Source of the DNA: Thiocapsa marina 5811
Lineage (GTDB): Bacteria; Pseudomonadota; Gammaproteobacteria; Chromatiales; Chromatiaceae
Direction: 5' to 3'
Length of the DNA: 32,331 nucleotides
NCBI RefSeq assembly: GCF_000223985.1
Contig: NZ_AFWV01000024.1
Span: 1 to 32,331 of the forward strand
In this document: positions 2,248 to 22,115 of the stretch, in pieces
How positions within the stretch are numbered: position 1 is the first letter of the stretch
How the letters are laid out: each line of letters starts with the position of its first letter
Translations under genes and position numbers: made by a program
Notes under the pieces: generated by a model
What the model was told of the DNA's origin: nothing
Databases searched by the model: none
What the model saw: the letters and a program-made list of their open reading frames with translations, nothing else

Positions 2248-5124
2248 TCAAAGCGCCGCAATCTTCTCCCGCTGCGCCTGCAGGTTGCCGATCGCCGTTG
2301 ATTGCTCGGCGAGCCGGGCGCGCTCCTTGTCGACCACCGCGGCCGGGGCCTTGTCGACGAAGCTCGGGTTGGCGAGCTTCTGCCCGATCCGCGCGATCTC
2401 GTCGGTCAGGCGGCCGATCTCCTTGTCGAGACGTTTGAGCTCGGCGTCCTTGTCGATCAGGCCGGCCATCGGGATGAGGAGCTTCATGTTGCCCACGAGC
2501 GCGATCGCCGATTCGGGGGCGCTCGACTCGTCTTCGAGCAGGGTGACCGATTCGATGCGGGCGAGAAAATCCAGATAGGGCCGGGCGACGGCGAGCCAGG
2601 TCTTGTCCTGCTCGGAGGCGTTGGCGACCAGGACCGGCAGGGGTTTGCCGGGCGCGATGTTCATCTCGCCCTTGATGCGCCGCACGCCGAGGATGACCTG
2701 CTGGACCCACTCGATCTCGGCGACGGCCTCCGGGTCGTCGGCACCCGCGTCGGCGACGGGGTAGGGCGCGAGCATGATGGTTTCGCCTTGGGCTCCGGCC
2801 AGGGGCGCGACCTTCTGCCAGATCTCCTCCGTGATGAAGGGCATGATGGGGTGGGCGAGCCGCAGCAGGGTCTCCAGGGTCTCGACCAGGGTGCGGCGGG
2901 TGCCGCGCTTGGCGGCATCGCTGGCGGCCGTGCCGGTGAGCACCGGCTTGGACAGCTCCAGATACCAGTCGCAGAAGGCGTTCCAGGTGAAGTCGTAGAT
3001 CGCCTGGGCGGCGAGGTCGAAGCGATAGCCCTCGATGGCGTCGGTGACCGTCGCCGTAGTGGCGTGGAGACGGGCGCGGATCCAGCGGTCGGCTGCGGAG
3101 AACTCCAGCTCGCCGCCCGACTCATCAGGGGCTTGGCCGCAATCCTGATCCTCCGTGTTCATCAGCACGTAGCGCGAGGCGTTCCACAGCTTGTTGCAGA
3201 AGTTGCGGTAGCCCTCGATTCGACCCAGGTCGAATTTGACGTCGCGCCCGGTGGTGGCGAGCGCGGCGAAGGTGAAGCGCAGCGCGTCGGTGCCGAAGCC
3301 GGGGATGCCGTCGGGGAAGTCCTTGCGGGTCTGTTTGGCGATCTTCTCGGCCAGATGCGGCTGCATCATGCCCTTGGTGCGTTTCTCGACCAGTGCTTCG
3401 AGTCCGATCCCGTCGATCAGATCGATGGGGTCGAGCACGTTGCCCTTGGACTTGGACATCTTCTCGCCGTGGGCGTCGCGCACCAGGCCGTGGATGTAGA
3501 CGTCCTTGAAGGGGACATCGTCCATGAACTTCAGGCCCATCATGATCATCCGGGCGACCCAGAAGAAGATGATGTCGAAGCCGGTGACCAGGACCGATGT
3601 GGGATAGAAGGCGTCGAGGCGATCGGTCTGCTCCGGCCAGCCGAGCGTGCTGAAGGGCCAGAGTGCGGAGCTGAACCAGGTGTCGAGCACGTCCGGGTCC
3701 TGGAGCAGGACGACCTCGGGGCCGAAGCCGTGACGCGCGCGGATCGCGTCCTCCGAGCGGCCGACATAGACGTTGCCTTCCACGTCGTACCAGGCCGGGA
3801 TGCGGTGCCCCCACCAGATCTGGCGGCTGATGCACCAGTCCTGGATGTTGCGCATCCAGTCGTAGTAGGTGTTCTTCCAGTTGTCCGGGACAAAGCGGAT
3901 GCGCCCGTCCTCGACCGCGGCGATGGCCGGTTCGGCCAGCGGGGCGACGCGCACGTACCACTGATCGGTTAGATAGGGCTCGATGACGGCGCCCGAGCGA
4001 TCGCCGCGCGGCTGCTGAAGCCGGTGCTCTTTGACCGCCGCGAGCAGGCCGAGCGAGTCGAGATCGGCGACGATCAGCTTGCGGGCCTCGTAGCGGTCGA
4101 GCCCGACGTAGGCGACGGGCAGCAGCGCGCCTTCTTCGGGCTGATTGGTGCGGATCGCGGCATCCGGGGTGAGGATGTTGATCAGGCCGCCGTGCGGCTG
4201 CTCGGCGATGGCGTTCTCGTCGCGGTGGCGCAGCCAGACCTGATGGTCGTTGAAGTCGTGCGCGGGCGTGATCTTCACGCAGCCGGTCCCGAACTCGGGG
4301 TCGGCGTGCTCGTCGGCGATGACGGGGATGCGCCGCCCGGTCAGGGGCAGCTCGACGAACTCGCCGATCAGGTGTTTGTAGCGCGGGTCTTCCGGGTTGA
4401 CGGCCACGGCGCAGTCGCCGAGCAGGGTTTCGGGACGCGTGGTCGAGACGACGAGATGCGCCGGCCCCGTCGCGCCGGGCGGCAGCACCAGGGGGTAGCG
4501 GATGTCCCACATGTGGCCGGACTCTTCCTCCGAGATGACCTCGAGATCGGAGACCGCGGTGTGCAGGGCGGGATCCCAGTTGACCAGACGCTTGCCGCGA
4601 TAGATCAGCCCTTCCTCGAACAGACGCACGAAGACCTCGCGCACCGCGTTGGAGAGCCCCTCGTCCATGGTGAAACGCTCGTGCTGCCAGTCCAGCGAGG
4701 AGCCGAGACGGCGCAGCTGGCGTGTAATGTTGCCGCCGGACTCCTGTTTCCACTCCCAAACCCGCTCGATGAAGGCCTCGCGTCCGAGGTCGTGACGGGT
4801 TTGGCCCGCGGCCTCCAACTGGCGCTCGACCACCATCTGGGTCGCGATCCCGGCGTGATCCGTGCCCGGCTGCCAGAGGGTGCGATCGCCTTTCATGCGG
4901 TGATAGCGCACCATCGTATCCATGATGGTGTTGTTGAAGCCGTGACCCATGTGGAGGCTTCCGGTCACGTTCGGCGGCGGGATCATGATGCAATAGGCCC
5001 CGGCCCCCGCGCCTTCGGCCCGGGTGCTCCCGGTCTGATCGGCCGGGACGAAATAGCCCTTCTCTTCCCAGAAGCGATACCAGTTTTTCTCGAGGGTTTG
5101 GGGGTCGTAGTTCTTATCCAGCAT
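2248..5124 (-). CDS. valS: Valyl-tRNA synthetase
   Basis: ValS charges tRNA-Val with valine in the cytoplasm and edits mischarged threonine. The 958-residue product is full length for the family. It has the class I signature HMGH (about residues 58-61, after PPPNVTGS), an inserted editing domain, and KMSKS followed by KGN (about residues 555-559). After the anticodon-binding domain comes the C-terminal coiled coil ([10 protein letters not shown]...[21 protein letters not shown]). The ATG start gives the usual N-terminus ([24 protein letters not shown]). Codons ~591-637 are duplicated exactly at the left edge of the window. It is divergent from the lipid transport operon at 5276. Confidence 0.98.
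3214..3352 (-). repeat. Intact-gene copy of the duplicated valS segment
   Basis: This part of valS is identical over its whole length to positions 1-139. The identity stops at 3353. Because 139 is limited by the window edge, the duplicated stretch may extend below 3214 toward the 3' end of valS. The distance between the two copies, about 3.2 kb, contains the 3' third of valS and the ATPase/DUF4276 module. Confidence 0.93.
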
Positions 5125-13897: not shown

Positions 13898-14091
13898 GCC
13901 GGCCGGCCAGTACCTTCGCTCACTTCGAGGTAGTGATCGACCGTCTCATGGAAGGCAGTTTCCCACTCATCGACCGTGGTGCCGTGAAACACGGCGATAT
14001 CCTTGATGTCGGCCAGCCGGCCGACAAAGATGCGGTCCTCCGGATCGTAGTCGATGCGGGCGGCATAGCCGCGGTAGGTCATGGCGTTCAT
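13879..14091 (-). pseudogene. 3'-truncated hicB-family antitoxin gene
   Basis: From ATG 14091 the minus strand encodes a clear HicB-family N-terminus of about 71 residues: MNAMTYRGYAARIDYDPEDR, then FVGRLADIKDIAVFHGTTVDE and AFHETVDHYLE, ending in RPAQKPSSG. Family members usually continue with about 40 more residues that form a ribbon-helix-helix DNA-binding domain. Here the frame instead runs open into the antisense of topB, so that domain is missing. The homologous part overlaps the last 19 bp of topB. No hicA is visible upstream. A truncated, non-DNA-binding remnant is most likely; a long fused read-through product is conceivable but improbable. Confidence 0.7.
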
Positions 14092-14254
14092 GGCGTGATC
14101 CCGGCGTTTTCGAGGCACTCGCGCGCTGCAACGATACCGCAGGCAAGCGGGCGGGCGCATCGGCTAATCGCCTCCGCGATGGTCGTCCGGCACTCCTGAA
14201 ATCGCGACAAGCGAAATCACCCCCGACGATTGCGGGGCTTTCAGACATCCGTCT

Positions 14255-14270
14255 TGTCGGGAATCGAACA
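14255..14270 (+). promoter_or_regulatory. NifA upstream activator site (TGT-N10-ACA)
   Basis: TGTCGGGAATCGAACA matches the NifA binding consensus TGT-N10-ACA exactly. It lies about 75 bp before the predicted nifE transcription start, a normal position for a NifA enhancer. An AT-rich tract (14287-14310) between this site and the promoter could help DNA bending. Confidence 0.8.
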
Positions 14271-14310
14271 GGGTCGTGGTCTTCTCTTTTAAAAACAAAA
14301 ATATAACGAT

Positions 14311-14327
14311 TGGCATAACGTCTGCTT
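14311..14327 (+). promoter_or_regulatory. Sigma-54 (RpoN) promoter of the nifEN operon
   Basis: TGGCATAACGTCTGCTT has the invariant GG (14312-14313) and GC (14324-14325) separated by exactly 10 bases, close to TGGCAC-N5-TTGCA. The nifE ATG is 35 bases downstream. With the NifA site upstream, this indicates nitrogen- and oxygen-controlled expression of nifEN. Confidence 0.85.
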
Positions 14328-14361
14328 AAGAAGCTCCAAAGCGAACGCCTTCGGAGCCTTC

Positions 14362-15825
14362 ATGAAACAGAAAGAGATCGCTGCGCTGCTCGACGAGCCG
14401 GCCTGTGCGCACAACGCGAAGGACAAATCCGGCTGTGCCAAGCTCAAGCCCGGCGCGACGGCCGGGGGCTGCTCGTTCGACGGGGCACAGATCGCACTCC
14501 TGCCGATTGCGGATGTCGCGCACATCGTGCACGGCTCGATCGCCTGCGCGGGCAATTCCTGGGACAACCGCGGGGCGCGCTCGAGCGGGCCGAGCCTCTA
14601 CAAGATCGGCATGACGACGGACCTTACCGAGCAGGACGTCATCATGGGCCGCAGCGAAAAGCGGCTCTTTCTCGGAATCAAGCAGGCGATCGAGAGCTAC
14701 AAGCCCGCGGCGGTCTTCGTCTACAACACCTGCGTGCCGGCCCTCACCGGCGACGACGTCGGCGCGGTCTGCCGGGAGGCGCAGACGCGTTGGGGCACGC
14801 CCGTGGTCTCGGTCGATGCCGCCGGCTTCTACGGCACCAAGAACCTCGGCAACCGGATCGCGGGCGAGACCATGGTCACGCAGGTCTGCGGCACCCGCGA
14901 GCCCGACCCGGTCCCGCCGGGGATCGAGCACGCGGGCTTTAAGGTCCACGACGTCAATCTGGTGGCCGAGTACAACATCGCCGGCGAGCTCTGGAACGTC
15001 CTGCCCTTGCTCGACGAGCTGGGTCTGCGCGTGCTCTGTAGCCTCTCCGGGGACGCACGTTTCCATGAGGTGCAGACCATGCATCGCGCGGAGGTCAACA
15101 TGATGGTCTGCTCCAAGGCCATGATCAACGTCGCGCGCAAGCTCAAAGAGACCTACGGCATCCCTTGGTTCGAGGGCAGCTTCTACGGCGTCGCGGACGT
15201 CTCGCAGGCGCTGCGCGACTTTGCTCGGATCATCGACGACCCGGATCTGACCCGCCGCACCGAGGCACTCATCGCCCGCGAGGAGGCCAAGATCCACGCC
15301 GCACTCGAACCCTATCGGGCGCGTCTGCAGGGCAGGAAGGTCCTGCTCTACACCGGCGGGGTCAAGAGTTGGTCGATTATCTCGGCCCTGCAGGATCTGG
15401 GCATGACGGTGGTCGCGACCGGCACCCGCAAGTCCACGGAGGAGGACAAGGCGCGCATCCGCGAGCTGATGGGCGAGGACGCGGTCATGATCGAGGACGG
15501 CAATCCGCGCGGTCTGATCGATCGGGTCCGAGAGAACGACGTCGACATCCTGATCGCCGGCGGACGCAACCTCTACACGGCGCTCAAGGCCCGTATCCCT
15601 TTCCTGGATATCAATCAGGAGCGCGAGTTCGGCTATGCCGGCTATGTCGGTATGGTCGAGCTGGCGCGCCAGCTCTGTCTGACGGTCGAGAGTCCGATCT
15701 GGGATGCGGTGCGGCGTCCGGCGCCCTGGGCCGCGACGGACGGCCAGTCCCACCAGGCGTCTGCAAAGTCCCTCTCGCTAGCAGCCCCTGAACGCGCTCC
15801 GGTCGAGGTGCCGTCCCATGCCTGA
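14362..15825 (+). CDS. nifE: NifE, FeMo-cofactor scaffold subunit alpha
   Basis: NifE pairs with NifN to form the scaffold on which NifB-cofactor is matured to FeMo-co. The 487-residue protein is of normal length. Cys37 (GGCSFDG), Cys62 (IACAGNSWD) and Cys124 ([12 protein letters not shown]) fall where the cluster-binding cysteines of the Azotobacter protein are known to be. A Rossmann-type C-terminal half is present ([15 protein letters not shown]..., [15 protein letters not shown]). It is the first gene after the NifA/sigma-54 promoter and overlaps nifN by 8 bp, implying coupled production of the two subunits. Confidence 0.97.
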
Positions 15826-17209
15826 GATCATCAAGCGCAACAAGGCCCTGTCGGTCAGTCCGCTGAAGGCCAGCAATACGGTCGGCGCGGCGCTCGCGTT
15901 CCTCGGATTCAATCGGACGATTCCGATGCTGCACGGATCCCAGGGCTGCACGGCCTTCGGTAAGATCTTCTTCGTGCGGCACTTCCGCGAGCCGATCCCC
16001 CTGCAGACCACGGCGATCGATCAGGTCAGCGCCATCATGGGCAGCGAGGCGCAGGTCGTCGAAGGGCTCAAGACCCTCTGCGAGAAGAGCGCCCCGGACC
16101 TGATCGGACTGCCGACCACGGGTCTGGTCGAGACCCAGGGCGCGGACATCGAGATGGCGGTGCGGGTCTTTCGTGAGACCTGGCCGCAGTTCGCGGGCAC
16201 CGCCGTCGTGCCGGTGTCCACACCGGACTTTACCGGCTGTATGGAGTCCGGCTACGCCCAGGCGACCAAGGCCATCATCGAGACGCTCGTCCCGACCGCC
16301 GCCGAGGCCGGTACCCGGCCCGGACGTCGCGAGCGGCAGGTCAATGTCCTGCCCGGCTCGCACCTCACGCCCGGCGACATCGAGTACCTGAAGGATCTGA
16401 TCGAGGCATTCGGTCTATCCCCGATGGTCTTGCCGGATCTCTCGGACTCGCTCGACGGCCATCTGCCCGAGACCGACTACAACCCCCTGACCATCGGCGG
16501 CACCCGCGTCAGCGATCTGGCGAGCGTCGGCGATGCCACGGCGACACTGGTGATCGGCGCCTCGATGGATGCGGCGGCCGATGCCTTGGCGGCACGCACC
16601 GGGGTTCCGGATCATCGCTTCGCGCATCTCATGGATATCGACGCCGTCGACAGGCTCGTCATGGCGCTCGCGCGGATCGCCGATCGCCCGGTCCCGGCCA
16701 AGATCGAGCGCCAGCGTGCGCAGCTTCAGGACGCCCTGCTCGATTGCCACTTCATGCTCGGCATGTCGCGTTTTGCGATCGCCGCGGACCCGGACCTGCT
16801 GGTCGGCTTCAGCCGGATGCTGGCGAGCGTCGGGGCGGAGGTGGTTGCGGCGGTGGCCCCGGCCAATGCACCGGCACTGCAGGATGTCGCAGCAGCCGAG
16901 GTCAAGATCGGCGACCTGGAGGATCTCGAGATCGCCGCGCGCGAGCGCGACGCCGAGATCCTGATCGGCAACTCGCATGCGGTTCATACCGCGGAGCGGT
17001 TGGGCATCCCCATGCTGCGCGCCGGTTTCCCGCAGTACGACCGTGTCGGCGGCTTTCAGCGGACCTGGATCGGCTATCGCGGGACCCGCGACGCCATCTT
17101 CGATCTGTCCAATCTGCTGCTCGGCGAGGAGCGCGGCGAGATCCATCCCTATCGTTCCAGGCTCAAGCAGTATCCGGAGGACGAGCGCGAGATGTCGCGC
17201 CCGCACTGA
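15818..17209 (+). CDS. nifN: NifN, FeMo-cofactor scaffold subunit beta
   Basis: This is the beta subunit of the NifEN scaffold, 463 residues. The N-terminus has [17 protein letters not shown] followed by [13 protein letters not shown], whose Cys44 is the conserved cluster ligand. [17 protein letters not shown] and the [16 protein letters not shown] region are typical of NifN/NifK-like proteins. The start codon lies inside the nifE 3' end. A terminator-like hairpin follows the stop codon, so transcription into nifX may be partial. Confidence 0.97.
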
Positions 17210-17221
17210 CAGGCTGCGCTT

Positions 17222-17262
17222 CAAGCCGAGCCCGGACCCGCACGGCTTGGAGTTGTTTTTTT
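17222..17262 (+). terminator. Rho-independent-like terminator or attenuator after nifN
   Basis: CAAGCCG (17222-17228) pairs with CGGCTTG (17243-17249) across a 14-base loop, and a run of seven T follows at 17256-17262. The U-tract begins 6 bases after the stem, a bit farther than ideal. It may reduce rather than stop transcription from nifEN into nifX. Confidence 0.5.
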
Positions 17263-17266
17263 CATT

Positions 17267-17363
17267 CTCCTTAAAGCGCGGCTCTCATGAGCCGCCACGT
17301 CGGCAACCGGACAACACTCCATGAACCCCACGCACGCCGCGATCAAAAAAGCGCTTTAAGGAG
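17267..17363 (+). promoter_or_regulatory. Perfect 13-bp inverted repeat covering the nifX ribosome binding site
   Basis: CTCCTTAAAGCGC (17267-17279) is the exact reverse complement of GCGCTTTAAGGAG (17351-17363). The right arm contains most of the nifX Shine-Dalgarno AAGGAGG (17358-17364), which is 5 bases before the ATG. In RNA the left arm would act as an anti-Shine-Dalgarno and could block nifX translation. A second hairpin, GCGGCTC-TCAT-GAGCCGC (17278-17295), shares two bases with the left arm, so the two folds partly compete. What would switch between them cannot be seen. Confidence 0.6.
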
Positions 17364-17369
17364 GCCCGA

Positions 17370-17861
17370 ATGGGAATGGAACGACGATTAAAGATCCTGA
17401 GCATGAGCGACGAGACGACAGCGATGGAGACCGAGACAGCCATCAAGGCGGCCTTTGCCTCCTCTGACATGAAGCAGATCGACCAGCACTTCGGCGCGGC
17501 CGAGTCCTTCGTGGTCTATTCGATCGATGCGCGGGAGCATCACCTGCTCGAGGCGATCCAGTTCGCGCGTCTCGAGATGGACGGCAACGAGGACAAGCTC
17601 GGCGCCAAGATTGCAGCGCTGGAGGGTTGCGACGTCGTCTATTGCGAAGCGGTCGGCGCATCGGCCGTGAGTCAGCTTCGCGCCAAGGGTATCCAGCCGA
17701 TGAAGGTCGGCTCGGGGACATCGGTCAGCAGTCTGATCCGCGATCTGCAAGGCGAGCTGCGCGACGGGCCGAGCGCCTGGCTCGCACGCACACTTGCGGG
17801 GCGGGCCCCCGAGCGTAACCGTCGCTTCGATGCGATGGAGGCGGAGGGCTGGAGCGAATGA
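17370..17861 (+). CDS. nifX: NifX, FeMo-cofactor intermediate carrier
   Basis: NifX binds NifB-cofactor and later FeMo-co precursors and exchanges them with NifEN. The 163-residue product shows the family fold: KAAFASSDMKQIDQHFGAAESFVVYSID, then DKLGAKIAALEGCDVVYCEAVGASAVSQL and GIQPMKVGSGTSVSSLI. The strong AAGGAGG 5 bases before ATG 17370 fixes the start; it lies in the right arm of an inverted repeat. The stop overlaps the start of the following RseC-family gene (ATGA at 17858-17861). Confidence 0.95.
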   Translation: MGMERRLKILSMSDETTAMETETAIKAAFASSDMKQIDQHFGAAESFVVYSIDAREHHLLEAIQFARLEMDGNEDKLGAKIAALEGCDVVYCEAVGASAVSQLRAKGIQPMKVGSGTSVSSLIRDLQGELRDGPSAWLARTLAGRAPERNRRFDAMEAEGWSE

Positions 17862-18313
17862 TCGAGACATCCGCCACCGTCGTCGAGGTGAAGCCCGGAC
17901 TCGCCTGGGTCGAAACCGTTCGGCAGAACGCCTGCGGGCACTGCGAAAGCGCGGGCAGCTGCGGTACCTCGGTGCTCGCAAAGCTGTTCGGTGCATCTCG
18001 GAGCCGTTTACGCATCGAGGATGCGTCGGGGCTGCGCGTCGGCGAGCAGGTCGTGATCGGTATCCCGGACGGGATACTGGTGCGGGCATCGTTCGTCGCC
18101 TATCTGATCCCGCTGGTGTTCCTGATCGCGGCCGCGGGCGTTGCGACACATCTCGGCGCGGGCGAGGGGCGTGTGGCCCTGATCGGCCTCGCCGGACTCG
18201 GCGTCGGACTCTGGGCGAGCGGACGACTGACCGGCGGGGCATCCGCCCGGGAACGCTATCGCCCTGTTCTCGTGCGCCGCGGGTCCGCGGTCGAGATCCC
18301 GATGCCTTTCTGA
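17858..18313 (+). CDS. RseC/MucC-family (SoxR-reducing type) membrane protein in the nif operon
   Basis: The 151-residue protein has a cysteine-rich N-terminal cytoplasmic part (Cys26, Cys29, Cys35 in NACGHCESAGSC) and two transmembrane helices (about residues 67-90 and 97-115). This is the RseC/RsxC-associated architecture. Family members are tied to Rnf/Rsx electron transfer complexes and to sigma-E or SoxR control. Its start overlaps nifX by 4 bp, so it is an integral part of the nif operon. It probably supports a nitrogenase-dedicated Rnf complex or cluster redox state; this is inferred from location. Confidence 0.85.
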   Translation: MIETSATVVEVKPGLAWVETVRQNACGHCESAGSCGTSVLAKLFGASRSRLRIEDASGLRVGEQVVIGIPDGILVRASFVAYLIPLVFLIAAAGVATHLGAGEGRVALIGLAGLGVGLWASGRLTGGASARERYRPVLVRRGSAVEIPMPF

Positions 18314-18373
18314 GGCGCGCACTGCACAAGACCGCATGTCCGGAACGGACAACCACTTAAAGAGGAAATGACC

Positions 18374-18847
18374 ATGACCGAGACGCTTGCCGGAATCGCC
18401 GCCGACGAGGGCCTGATGCAGTCCCAGTTCGTTATCGAGATGGACCGTCAGATGCGCGCCATCGATCCCTACGGCGAATTCGACCGACTCTCGACCGCCG
18501 AGCTCCTGGAGCCCTTCATCCTGACCAAGGAGAAGCGCCGGGAGATCCCCTTGGTCGGAGATCCCGACGAGACCGTCGTGGCGCGGATCAAGGCCTACTA
18601 CAACGCCATCTCCGCCATGATCGAATCCGAATGTGGGCTGATGGCCGTGCCGCTGGTCCACCTGAGCCACGAAGGGTTCGGGCGCGTCATCATCACGGTC
18701 GGCAAGCTGGTCGTGCTGGACCGCTCGGTGCGCGACGTGCATCGGTTCGGCTTCCCGACCCTGTCGAAGATGAAGGACGAGGCCGACAAGGTGCTGTCGG
18801 TCGCGCTCGAATTGATCGGCGAGCATTCCAAGGTCGCGGGCCTCTAA
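18374..18847 (+). CDS. NifX-associated nitrogen fixation protein (DUF269)
   Basis: The 157-residue protein belongs to the DUF269 family, found next to nifX in most diazotrophs. Recognisable parts are QSQFVIEMDRQMRAIDPYG, LVGDPDETVVARIKAYYNAI and VIITVGKLVVLDRSVRDVHRFGF. The ATG at 18374 is preferred over 18368, because AGAGGA (18361-18366) is 7 bases from the former and only 1 from the latter. The biochemical role is not established; a support function in FeMo-co assembly or nitrogenase maturation is assumed. Its TAA stop lies inside a palindromic intergenic repeat. Confidence 0.93.
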   Translation: MTETLAGIAADEGLMQSQFVIEMDRQMRAIDPYGEFDRLSTAELLEPFILTKEKRREIPLVGDPDETVVARIKAYYNAISAMIESECGLMAVPLVHLSHEGFGRVIITVGKLVVLDRSVRDVHRFGFPTLSKMKDEADKVLSVALELIGEHSKVAGL

Positions 18848-18928
18848 ATCGCGCGGTCTGCGATCCGCGTTGTTTGCGCGGAACCCGGGCCTCCCGGTTG
18901 TCTGCGACCTCTGCGGGGCGCGATTTAG
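18844..18928. repeat. Palindromic intergenic repeat, copy 1
   Basis: CTAAATCGCGC (18844-18854) and GCGCGATTTAG (18918-18928) are perfect 11-bp inverted ends of an ~85-bp element. The TAA in the left end is the stop codon of the DUF269 gene. The next bases (TGCGATCCGCGTTGTTTG) resemble the corresponding part of copies 2 and 3. Its transcript could fold as a long hairpin between two nif genes. Confidence 0.7.
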
Positions 18929-18968
18929 GTGATTCAGAAAACTCAGACGTAGGTTGGAGGTTGAGGGT

Positions 18969-19184
18969 ATGACGGGTGATGAGATTCGTGCCTTGGAGAA
19001 GGCCGTGAGCAAGGCGAAACGCATCGCCACCGAGCGGGCCGGTGAGCTGCATGACCTGGTGGAGGATCGGTTGCCCGCCGGGTACGAGGAGATTCCCGGC
19101 ATCGCTCAAGCGACTTACGACGCATGCCTCGCCTGGGCGCAGGCCAATGCTGCGCTCAAGGCGGCTCAGGCCGAGAGTGCTTGA
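18969..19184 (+). CDS. DUF683 small nif-associated protein (CCE_0567-like)
   Basis: This 71-residue helical protein matches the DUF683 family, a small Rop-like helical hairpin coded in nif clusters. Two amphipathic helices (EIRALEKAVSKAKRIATERA and ATYDACLAWAQANAALKAAQ) flank a loop with LPAGYEEIPGIA. The start is ATG 18969 because GGAGG (18956-18960) is 8 bases upstream; the TTG at 18954 overlaps that site and is unlikely. A family relative is described as a metalloprotein, but the role in nitrogen fixation is unknown. Confidence 0.9.
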   Translation: MTGDEIRALEKAVSKAKRIATERAGELHDLVEDRLPAGYEEIPGIAQATYDACLAWAQANAALKAAQAESA

Positions 19185-19217
19185 ACGAAACCCTTTTTCG
19201 AACATGGAGAAACACCC

Positions 19218-19529
19218 ATGAGTGTCATCACAGGCATGACCCGCGGCGGCGTCGAATGGACGCCTGCGTTCATCGAGAGCATCAATCAAAACAACTGCAT
19301 CGGCTGCGGCCGCTGCTATAAGGTCTGTCCTCGGGATGTCTTCGAGCTGGTCGACCGCGAGGATCTCGATCTGGAAGAGCTCGACGACGAGGGCGACGAC
19401 GACTTCGACGAGGCACCGGGCATGGTCATGAATCTCAAGGACGCCCTCGACTGCATCGGCTGTCAGGCGTGCTCCCGGGTCTGTCCCAAAAAGTGTCTCT
19501 CGCACGAGCCGCTTGCGGTCGCTGCCTAA
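19218..19529 (+). CDS. fdxB: Nif-specific ferredoxin III (2[4Fe-4S])
   Basis: The 103-residue electron carrier has two cluster motifs: Cys27/30/33/37 (CIGCGRCYKVCP) and Cys79/82/85/89 with an extra Cys93 (CIGCQACSRVCPKKC). They are separated by a very acidic loop (about residues 46-65) typical of ferredoxin III from nif operons. GGAGA lies 7 bases before the ATG. It probably donates electrons to FeMo-co assembly proteins or to nitrogenase. The TAA stop is inside repeat copy 2, which ends the operon. Confidence 0.95.
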   Translation: MSVITGMTRGGVEWTPAFIESINQNNCIGCGRCYKVCPRDVFELVDREDLDLEELDDEGDDDFDEAPGMVMNLKDALDCIGCQACSRVCPKKCLSHEPLAVAA

Positions 19530-19610
19530 ACCGCGCCCAGCGTGGTATGCGTCGTGTGTTGAATCGGTCTGGCCGCGCCGGCTCCGATCATTCTCGGAGC
19601 CGGCGCGGTT
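19526..19610. repeat. Palindromic intergenic repeat, copy 2
   Basis: Left end CTAAACCGCGCC and right end GGCGCGGTT (19602-19610) bound an ~85-bp element, with at least 9 bp of perfect inverted match. The TAA at 19527-19529 is the fdxB stop codon. The block GCGT-G-ATGCGTCG after the left end is shared with copy 3 (27912). A separate strong hairpin occupies its right half. Confidence 0.7.
19573..19608 (+). terminator. 15-bp hairpin at the end of the nif operon
   Basis: Positions 19573-19587 (CCGCGCCGGCTCCGA) are the exact reverse complement of 19594-19608, with a 6-base loop. This is one of the strongest hairpins in the window and lies 44 bp after the fdxB stop. There is no proper U-tract behind it, so it may stall polymerase or protect the 3' end of the transcript rather than act as a classic terminator. 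Confidence 0.6.
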
Positions 19611-19644
19611 GCCGTTCGTCATCCTGCCGGATTCGGCGGACCGA

Positions 19645-20319
19645 TCAGGCCGTAATAGGCACGATCGTGATATCGACCCGGCGGTTGAGCTGGCGGCCTG
19701 CTTCGGTCTCGTTCGAGGCGATCGGCTGATTCTTGCCGTAGCCGGTGGCGATGATGCGCTGCGGCAGGACCCCGTCGGACTCCATGTAGTACTGAACGGC
19801 ACCGGCGCGTCGCTGGGAGAGCAGTTGGTTATGTTCCGCCGAGCCGGTACTGTCGGTATGGCCGGAGATCAAGAGCTCGGTCTTGCCGTACTTGCTGACG
19901 ATTGCCGAGATCTTGTCCATGGTGCTGTAAAAGCCCGGCTGGATGCGGTCTGAATCGATCTCGAAGGTGGTCGCACCCGTCATCCGGACCAGCAGTTGAT
20001 CGTTCGGCAGCTTCTGCACGCTGATCATGCCGCTGGCGATCTCGTCGGCGAGCGCCTTTTCGAAATCCTTACGTTGATCTTCCATATAGGCGCCGACGGC
20101 GGTCCCGATGAGGGCCCCGCCGACCGCGCCGATCAGGGCACCGCGCCCCGCGTTGGCACTGAACGAGCCGATGATCGCACCCGCGGCCGCCCCCCCGGCG
20201 CTGCCGATCGCGGCGCCCGCGCCGGTTTCGGTCAGGCCGGAGCCGTCGGCTGCGCAGCCGACGACCAGGACAGCGGCAAGCGCGGATGCGGCGAGGCGTT
20301 TCAAGGGACGCATTGTCAT
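19645..20319 (-). CDS. OmpA-family lipoprotein with glycine zipper (YiaD-like)
   Basis: The 224-residue lipoprotein has a signal peptide ending in VLVVGC (Cys22). A Gly/Ala-rich glycine-zipper stretch follows (GAGAAIGSAGGAAAGAIIG...ALIGAVGGALIGTAVGAY, about residues 30-80). The C-terminal OmpA domain binds peptidoglycan and carries the hallmark ISGHTDSTGS...NQLLSQRRA and GYGKNQPIASNETEAGRQLNRRVDI. It anchors the outer membrane to the cell wall. The start is ATG 20319 with a GGGAG upstream; the longer open frame to 20379 would put 20 residues before the signal sequence. Confidence 0.92.
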   Translation of the reverse strand: MTMRPLKRLAASALAAVLVVGCAADGSGLTETGAGAAIGSAGGAAAGAIIGSFSANAGRGALIGAVGGALIGTAVGAYMEDQRKDFEKALADEIASGMISVQKLPNDQLLVRMTGATTFEIDSDRIQPGFYSTMDKISAIVSKYGKTELLISGHTDSTGSAEHNQLLSQRRAGAVQYYMESDGVLPQRIIATGYGKNQPIASNETEAGRQLNRRVDITIVPITA

Positions 20320-20581
20320 CTGGGTTCTCCCGTAGAGCGGTATTGGTGATTCGAGGTCGAAATCGTGATCGCGGATCATAGCAGAGGCGCGCGGGGCTCG
20401 CGTCGGGGAGACACGCCCGGAATCACCGATGTTCCTGCTGCACCTTCAGCGTGTCGGCTCAAACCGCTCATGTGATCTCTCAAACGCCGCCCACGACTGC
20501 ATGTCGGTGCGGGCGCTTGTCTCGGGGCGGAGCGACACAACATGTTCCCGAACGAACGACAACCCGCGGGACACGAGATCG

Positions 20582-21935: not shown

Positions 21936-21976
21936 AACCTCGGGGGTCGGGTGGACCAGTGTCGTATGGACAAACG

Positions 21977-22059
21977 CCGTAGGGTGGACAAGCACTGCGT
22001 GGTCCATCGGCGACGCCGCGGGGTTCGGTGGACTTCGCTCCCGCTCGTCCACCCTACGG
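21977..22059. repeat. GTAGGGTGGAC-type intergenic palindrome
   Basis: CCGTAGGGTGGAC (21977-21989) and GTCCACCCTACGG (22047-22059) are perfect 13-bp inverted ends of an 83-bp element between the DUF1295 and DUF6134 genes. A related GGGTGGACCAGTGTCGTATGGAC stretch lies just before it. GTAGGGTGG.../...CCACCCTAC elements are dispersed intergenic repeats in many gammaproteobacteria. Confidence 0.7.
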
Positions 22060-22115
22060 TGCTGGTTCGCCCTGCCGGCCGGCCTCATGAACAACGTCTA
22101 TCGGGAGACATCTAG

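Follow-up and report, generated by a model that had tools for sequence, protein, structure and literature searches.

The nifX gene of a Thiocapsa genome of 5.6 Mb (G000) is preceded by a leader in which a perfect 13-bp inverted repeat covers the Shine-Dalgarno (SD) sequence of the gene. This repeat is real and beyond chance. Among the genomes searched, its sequence elements are confined to the nifX leader, and the block that they bound is more conserved than four-fold sites; the pairing of the arms is predicted. The likeliest reading is that a long-range helix between the arms locks nifX translation. Its opening by ribosomes that cross a 12-codon frame within the loop we regard as a fair guess, and to the whole proposal, helix and opening together, we assign a probability somewhat short of even.

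To our knowledge, the means by which diazotrophs match cofactor carriers, NifX among them, to the NifEN scaffold are little known. Descriptions of post-transcriptional control of nif genes concern mainly RNAs that act in trans, for example NfiS and NfiR. If the proposal is true, the nifN-nifX lock would be a means of setting stoichiometry and might serve as a part in the design of nif clusters.

The nifN-nifX spacer and its operon

The window, meaning the whole stretch of DNA analyzed (32,331 nt), has nifN and nifX separated by a spacer of 160 nt (Table 1). In 21 of the 44 loci measured by script, Thiocapsa included, nifN overlaps the nifX match; this is a mechanical count. The NifX search had given 46 loci in total; the two that were cut off (L046 and L047) were left out, and L002 was read by eye.

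Table 1. Features of the nif locus around the nifX leader, in window coordinates
Feature	Position	Strand	Remarks
nifE	14362-15825		
nifN	15818-17209		Stop at 17209
Terminator-like stem	17218-17253	+	-19.2 kcal/mol; T7 at 17256-17262, 7 T in next 8 bases
Outward extension of left strand	17261-17266	+	TTCATT; complementary, with one bulge, to AATGGAA at 17375-17381 (nifX codons 2-4)
Left arm, anti-Shine-Dalgarno	17267-17279	+	CTCCTTAAAGCGC
Hairpin, 7 bp	17278-17295	+	GCGGCTC-TCAT-GAGCCGC, loop TCAT; shares 2 nt with left arm
Conserved middle segment	17296-17320	+	Contains CCGGAC, weak SD-like site for small frame
Small frame, 12-codon ORF	17321-17359	+	MNPTHAAIKKAL-stop; TAA is first part of nifX SD TAAGGAGG
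Right arm	17351-17363	+	GCGCTTTAAGGAG; includes nifX SD and last two sense codons and stop of small frame
nifX	17370-17861	+	Pfam PF02579; TIGR02663 at 107.4 bits, just below its cut-off of 112
rseC-like gene (RseC/MucC family)	17858-18313	+	PF04246; overlaps nifX stop as ATGA
DUF269 gene	18368-18847		Followed by nif-specific ferredoxin gene

The RseC/MucC-family gene is placed between nifX and the DUF269 gene. In all seven genomes that carry the inverted repeat and small frame (hereafter, the element), the nifX stop reads ATGA. In the window, the only one of the seven in which the rseC-like gene was identified, this ATGA is also the rseC start, an arrangement that would permit the coupling of RseC to NifX that was proposed in an earlier note on this DNA.

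A NifA-type site, TGT-N10-ACA, lies before nifE at 14255-14270; the window has two such sites, which is the level found in shuffled sequence. Also before nifE, at 14312-14325, a GG-N10-GC, sigma-54-like site was seen by eye; it is too far from the consensus for our sigma-54 scan to report. That scan gave no match in the nifN-nifX spacer at ≤2 mismatches, a result to be read with its failure to report the nifE site in mind. The spacer also had no NifA-type TGT-N10-ACA match, and a scan for sigma-70-like sites over 14000-20500 found none. Because the spacer has no promoter-type match, nifX is most simply taken to be transcribed from upstream, and the operon would then be read as one transcript.

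Two other inverted repeats were noticed downstream. A perfect 15-bp repeat with a 6-nt gap lies at 19573-19608, shortly 3' of the nif ferredoxin gene and directly before a possible start at 19609, and a 24-nt repeat (83% complementary, arms 49 nt apart) lies at 21970-22066. An Rfam scan of the window at the gathering score gave no matches.

The inverted repeat, its conservation, and its distribution

The earlier note had described in the spacer a stem followed by a T7 tract, a hairpin sharing two bases with the left arm, and a perfect 13-bp repeat, and all of these are in place. The arms are 100% complementary over 13 bp and separated by 71 nt; as the note had said, the right arm is the nifX SD region and the left arm is an anti-SD. 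Perfect inverted repeats of at least 13 nt are in themselves no rarity: among the 24 pairs listed for the window with arms within 150 nt, 3 are of this kind. What is rare is the coverage of an SD. No SD-covering 13-bp helix arose when the sequence 5' of the right arm was dinucleotide-shuffled 20,000 times (the longest was 11 bp), which bears out the view that such an arm is unlikely by chance. The window holds 126 SD-plus-start sites, two of them nifX's own, and among the other 124 look-alikes an SD-covering helix reaches at most 8 bp. The folding z score is -3.3 for positions 17210-17400 and -5.6 for 17262-17376, the ends of the latter having been picked after the arms were seen. In the whole genome the 13-mer of the arms has two copies, both of them the arms, so for perfect matches the genome encodes no sRNA elsewhere that could pair with all 13 nt of the left arm; an sRNA target was one of the roles that the earlier note had imagined.

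The conservation of the block from arm to arm (17267-17363) exceeds that of four-fold sites. Among the seven genomes, 62 of its 97 columns are invariant versus 114 of 277 four-fold sites in nifN and nifX of the same genomes (binomial p 5e-6), by a rough test that assumes independent columns and neutral four-fold sites; columns with gaps did not enter the counts. When every coding site of the two genes is counted, the invariant share is 75-76%. Within the block, the invariant columns number 9 of 13 in the left arm, 9 of 10 in its core CTTAAAGCGC (p 0.002), 11 of 16 in the hairpin (p 0.02), 18 of 26 in the middle segment (17295-17320; p 0.004), 14 of 30 in the body of the small frame (p 0.33), and 11 of 13 in the right arm. 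The nifN side, with the terminator-like stem (17210-17254), has only 6 of 44, and the T tract has 5 of 11. This difference between the block and the nifN side defines the conserved unit: it extends from about the left strand to the SD and excludes the terminator.

The terminator-like hairpin of the earlier note thus exists in the window, with its stem and T7, but is not conserved in relatives. In the other six genomes the corresponding stems are weaker (-6.2 to -15.8 kcal/mol, with 2 to 5 T in the next eight bases), and we rejected a terminator or attenuator as a conserved part. A consensus terminator scan, which accepts loops of 3 to 8 only, did not report the stem in the window. In the hairpin region, five pairs, CGCGG/CCGCG, are possible in each of the other six genomes. 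A frame starting in the hairpin loop was rejected as coding, its length varying between 24 and 192 codons among the seven genomes (as read by a script that stopped about 490 nt into nifX), with no third-position excess.

The pairing of the arms is largely kept across the seven genomes. For the 13 arm pairs, 88 of 91 cells are paired, and the outward extension TTCATT pairs with nifX codons 2 to 4 in 41 of 42 cells; five of its six pairs are invariant, and the sixth departs by one unpaired cell only. Over the whole given structure 95.4% of cells are paired, versus 27 to 51% when the partners are slid by 1 to 3 columns, a comparison that leans toward the given structure, which was derived from these same sequences. 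The check for covariation that the earlier note had proposed turned out negative: none of the 13 arm pairs has a compensatory double change. Because the right arm is the SD it is nearly fixed, and with 9 of the 13 pairs invariant this test has little power. The covariation score of the 25-pair structure was reached by all 500 shuffles, and the covariation term of RNAalifold was unfavorable (+0.82). Two double changes, both in an inner helix, were set aside since that helix is broken in several genomes. An inner pairing of two CATG stretches, which held in 38 of 42 cells and showed no double change, was also set aside, and no inner structure was common to the predictions.

By prediction, the SD lies in a stable helix with the upstream anti-SD, hidden only partly in G003, and the seven inner pairs (AAAGCGC/GCGCTTT), which fall outside the core of the SD, have probabilities of 0.52 to 1 in six of the seven genomes. 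Two genomes depart from the pattern. In G001 a C-A mismatch falls inside the helix, and the predicted probability of the core drops to 0.03; the prediction nevertheless has its SD paired, the partner being the hairpin region rather than the left arm. In G003 two outer pairs are lost and the SD is displaced; its predicted SD pairing is 0.66 to 0.71 versus a median of 0.67 for control starts. Both genomes, as modeled, argue against strict maintenance of the helix. The control starts (n = 218) belong to long reading frames that have an SD, taken from the window and from L002-L045; some of these frames are surely non-genes. Predicted SD pairing reached 0.8 at 22% of the starts and 0.9 at 11%. Strong SD pairing is thus, in such models, not rare in this GC-rich DNA, and by itself it makes a weak argument. 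The conservation and the position of the pairing count for more.

Within the genomes searched, the element is confined to one Thiocapsa clade. Ten of 11 Thiocapsa genomes have nifX (G006 has no nifX match), and the element is present in 7 of the 11, or 7 of the 10 that have nifX, as one copy each and beside nifX. The pattern CTTAAAGCGC-N55-85-GCGCTTTAAG occurs at a single place in 6 of the 11 genomes, always next to nifX; the controls gave 0 matches. Neither a DNA search nor a covariance model, applied to 194 genomes of the family (an even draw from a larger family), found the element elsewhere, bar one weak match each; the DNA search scored 4 candidates in most of the genomes listed, and the covariance-model search, under stricter filters, scored 20. 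We took both weak matches as chance: that in G181 (32 bp, query 109-140, E 8e-4) includes neither arm, and that in G092 (25.3 bits) has no AAGGAG in the letters read. The model's hit on the reverse strand of the window (20 bits) consists of the palindromic arms, and the model had no match at E 1 on 30 other loci. A dispersed repeat is not supported, both the 13-mer and the element being confined to the nifX leader.

The seven genomes with the element form one clade of close relatives with G010 as its sister (tree rooted on G007); most branches inside the seven are poorly supported. The G010 spacer can be aligned, and by eye it lacks both matching arms and the small frame, while the middle segment is partly alignable. 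Outside the genus, the nifN-nifX spacer of Thiorhodococcus minor (L011, directly before position 3001) has a different, imperfect inverted repeat of the GCAAAGGACGC type, seen by eye.

The small frame and the control of nifX

In all seven genomes the loop contains a frame of 12 codons that begins with ATG and ends with a TAA overlapping the nifX SD, with no indel. The stop opens the sequence TAAGGAG (TAAGGGAGG in G003) and lies 9 nt before the nifX start in five genomes, 10 nt in G000, and 12 nt in G003. The encoded peptide is under no visible selection. Pairwise codon differences are 21 synonymous versus 89 non-synonymous, and the other two frames are similar; variable columns number 4, 7, and 5 at codon positions 1, 2, and 3, which is no third-position excess. 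(G008, which has a 2-nt insert, was excluded from the count on the longer block.) The SD of the frame is weak, with an anti-SD energy of -3.2 kcal/mol in all seven genomes versus -8.4 to -12.1 kcal/mol for nifX. A frame kept solely for the passage of ribosomes would look like this, and so would a chance frame.

We propose that the left strand (17261-17279) reaches across the 71 nt to pair with the SD of nifX and perhaps also with the codons just past the start. With its SD paired, nifX would hardly be initiated on its own. The small frame in the loop would be weakly initiated, and a ribosome translating it would melt the right arm, terminate at the stop codon inside the nifX SD, 9 to 12 nt before the nifX start, and either reinitiate at nifX or leave the SD open; rseC translation would follow through the ATGA overlap. 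The amount of NifX, and with it that of RseC, would thus stay under that of NifEN and hinge on a second, weak initiation event. The gating of NifX translation that the earlier note suggested is the best-supported reading in that the SD lies in the predicted helix, the arms bound a conserved domain, and the nifX stop reads ATGA in all seven genomes; the compensatory changes that it hoped for in relatives did not appear.

Some of this evidence would suit other explanations. The helix may be a plain, unregulated damper that fixes nifX translation at a low level, the small frame being accidental in a conserved sequence. The unconstrained peptide, the weak SD of the frame, and a helix that is stable at every modeled temperature would all fit; however, an accidental frame would not be expected to keep its start, stop, and length in seven of seven genomes, and a plain helix gives no reason for the conservation of the middle segment. 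We consider the damper unlikely, if a serious contender. A long near-perfect helix between two cistrons, with its possible extension to nifX codons 2 to 4, could also be an element of mRNA processing or stability that, through an RNase III-like cut or by shielding the downstream RNA, splits nifEN from nifX-rseC. Conserved stem-loops are reported near processing sites in Anabaena nif and vnf transcripts (PMC4284476), but a processing signal does not require that the right arm sit on the SD, and such a role is quite unlikely.

A switch is a further candidate, in which the conserved 97-nt domain would sense a ligand, a protein, or an sRNA and open or close the helix. It would account for a middle segment that is more conserved than four-fold sites and partly alignable in G010; the empty Rfam scan, the predictions that share no inner structure, and the occurrence of the element in one genus only make it improbable. 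We have similarly small expectations of a bolder version of our own, in which a Thiocapsa-specific RNA domain would set the NifX:NifEN stoichiometry via the small frame while the middle segment sensed a nif-related signal. If the arms were instead promoter or regulator sites in the DNA, arranged as inverted copies with RNA pairing as a by-product, a conserved block between them would make sense. The right arm on the SD and the lack of sigma-70-like sites speak against this, as does, weakly, the sigma-54 scan, and we find the idea very hard to favor. The earlier note had also suggested an RNA thermometer, in keeping with an SD within a helix. The modeled helix is far too stable for that: at 37°C, keeping the left strand unpaired would cost 9.7 to 17 kcal/mol across the seven genomes, and in all seven the modeled SD pairing barely shifts between 20 and 45°C. 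We give the thermometer next to no credence.

Comparison with known systems

The principle of control in the proposed lock is known from other genes; nifX is a place for which we found no earlier report of such an element in the open-access literature searched. In Anabaena, stem-loops close to where the nifH1, vnfH, vnfDG, and fdxH1 transcripts are processed are linked to stability (PMC4284476). Like the Thiocapsa element, they are structured RNAs within nif operons, but they are not tied to a hidden SD before nifX. Coupling by termination and reinitiation is illustrated by geneV-geneVII of M13, where a ribosome finishing one frame shortly ahead of the following start can go on to translate the second gene (PMC2268962). 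In the nifX leader, by contrast, the upstream frame is 12 codons long, and no product of it is known.

The closest parallel is mgtQ in the Salmonella mgtC-mgtB spacer, an 8-codon ORF with a strong SD, alternative stem-loops, and functional Asp/Glu codons, whose control was tested by fusions (PMC8092293). Both spacers are unusually long for the inside of an operon, both have a very short ORF (8 codons there and 12 here, the latter with a start and stop conserved in seven of seven genomes), and in both a structure, predicted in our case, masks the ribosome-binding site of the gene that follows. The nifX small frame differs in that its SD is weak. Furthermore, the mgtQ ribosome occupies stem region 1 rather than the stem in which the mgtB site is hidden (PMC8092293), whereas the nifX spacer would form one long-range helix, and the small frame ends inside the hidden SD. 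With these differences, we take the proposed lock, opened from within, to resemble mgtQ-mgtB in its logic.
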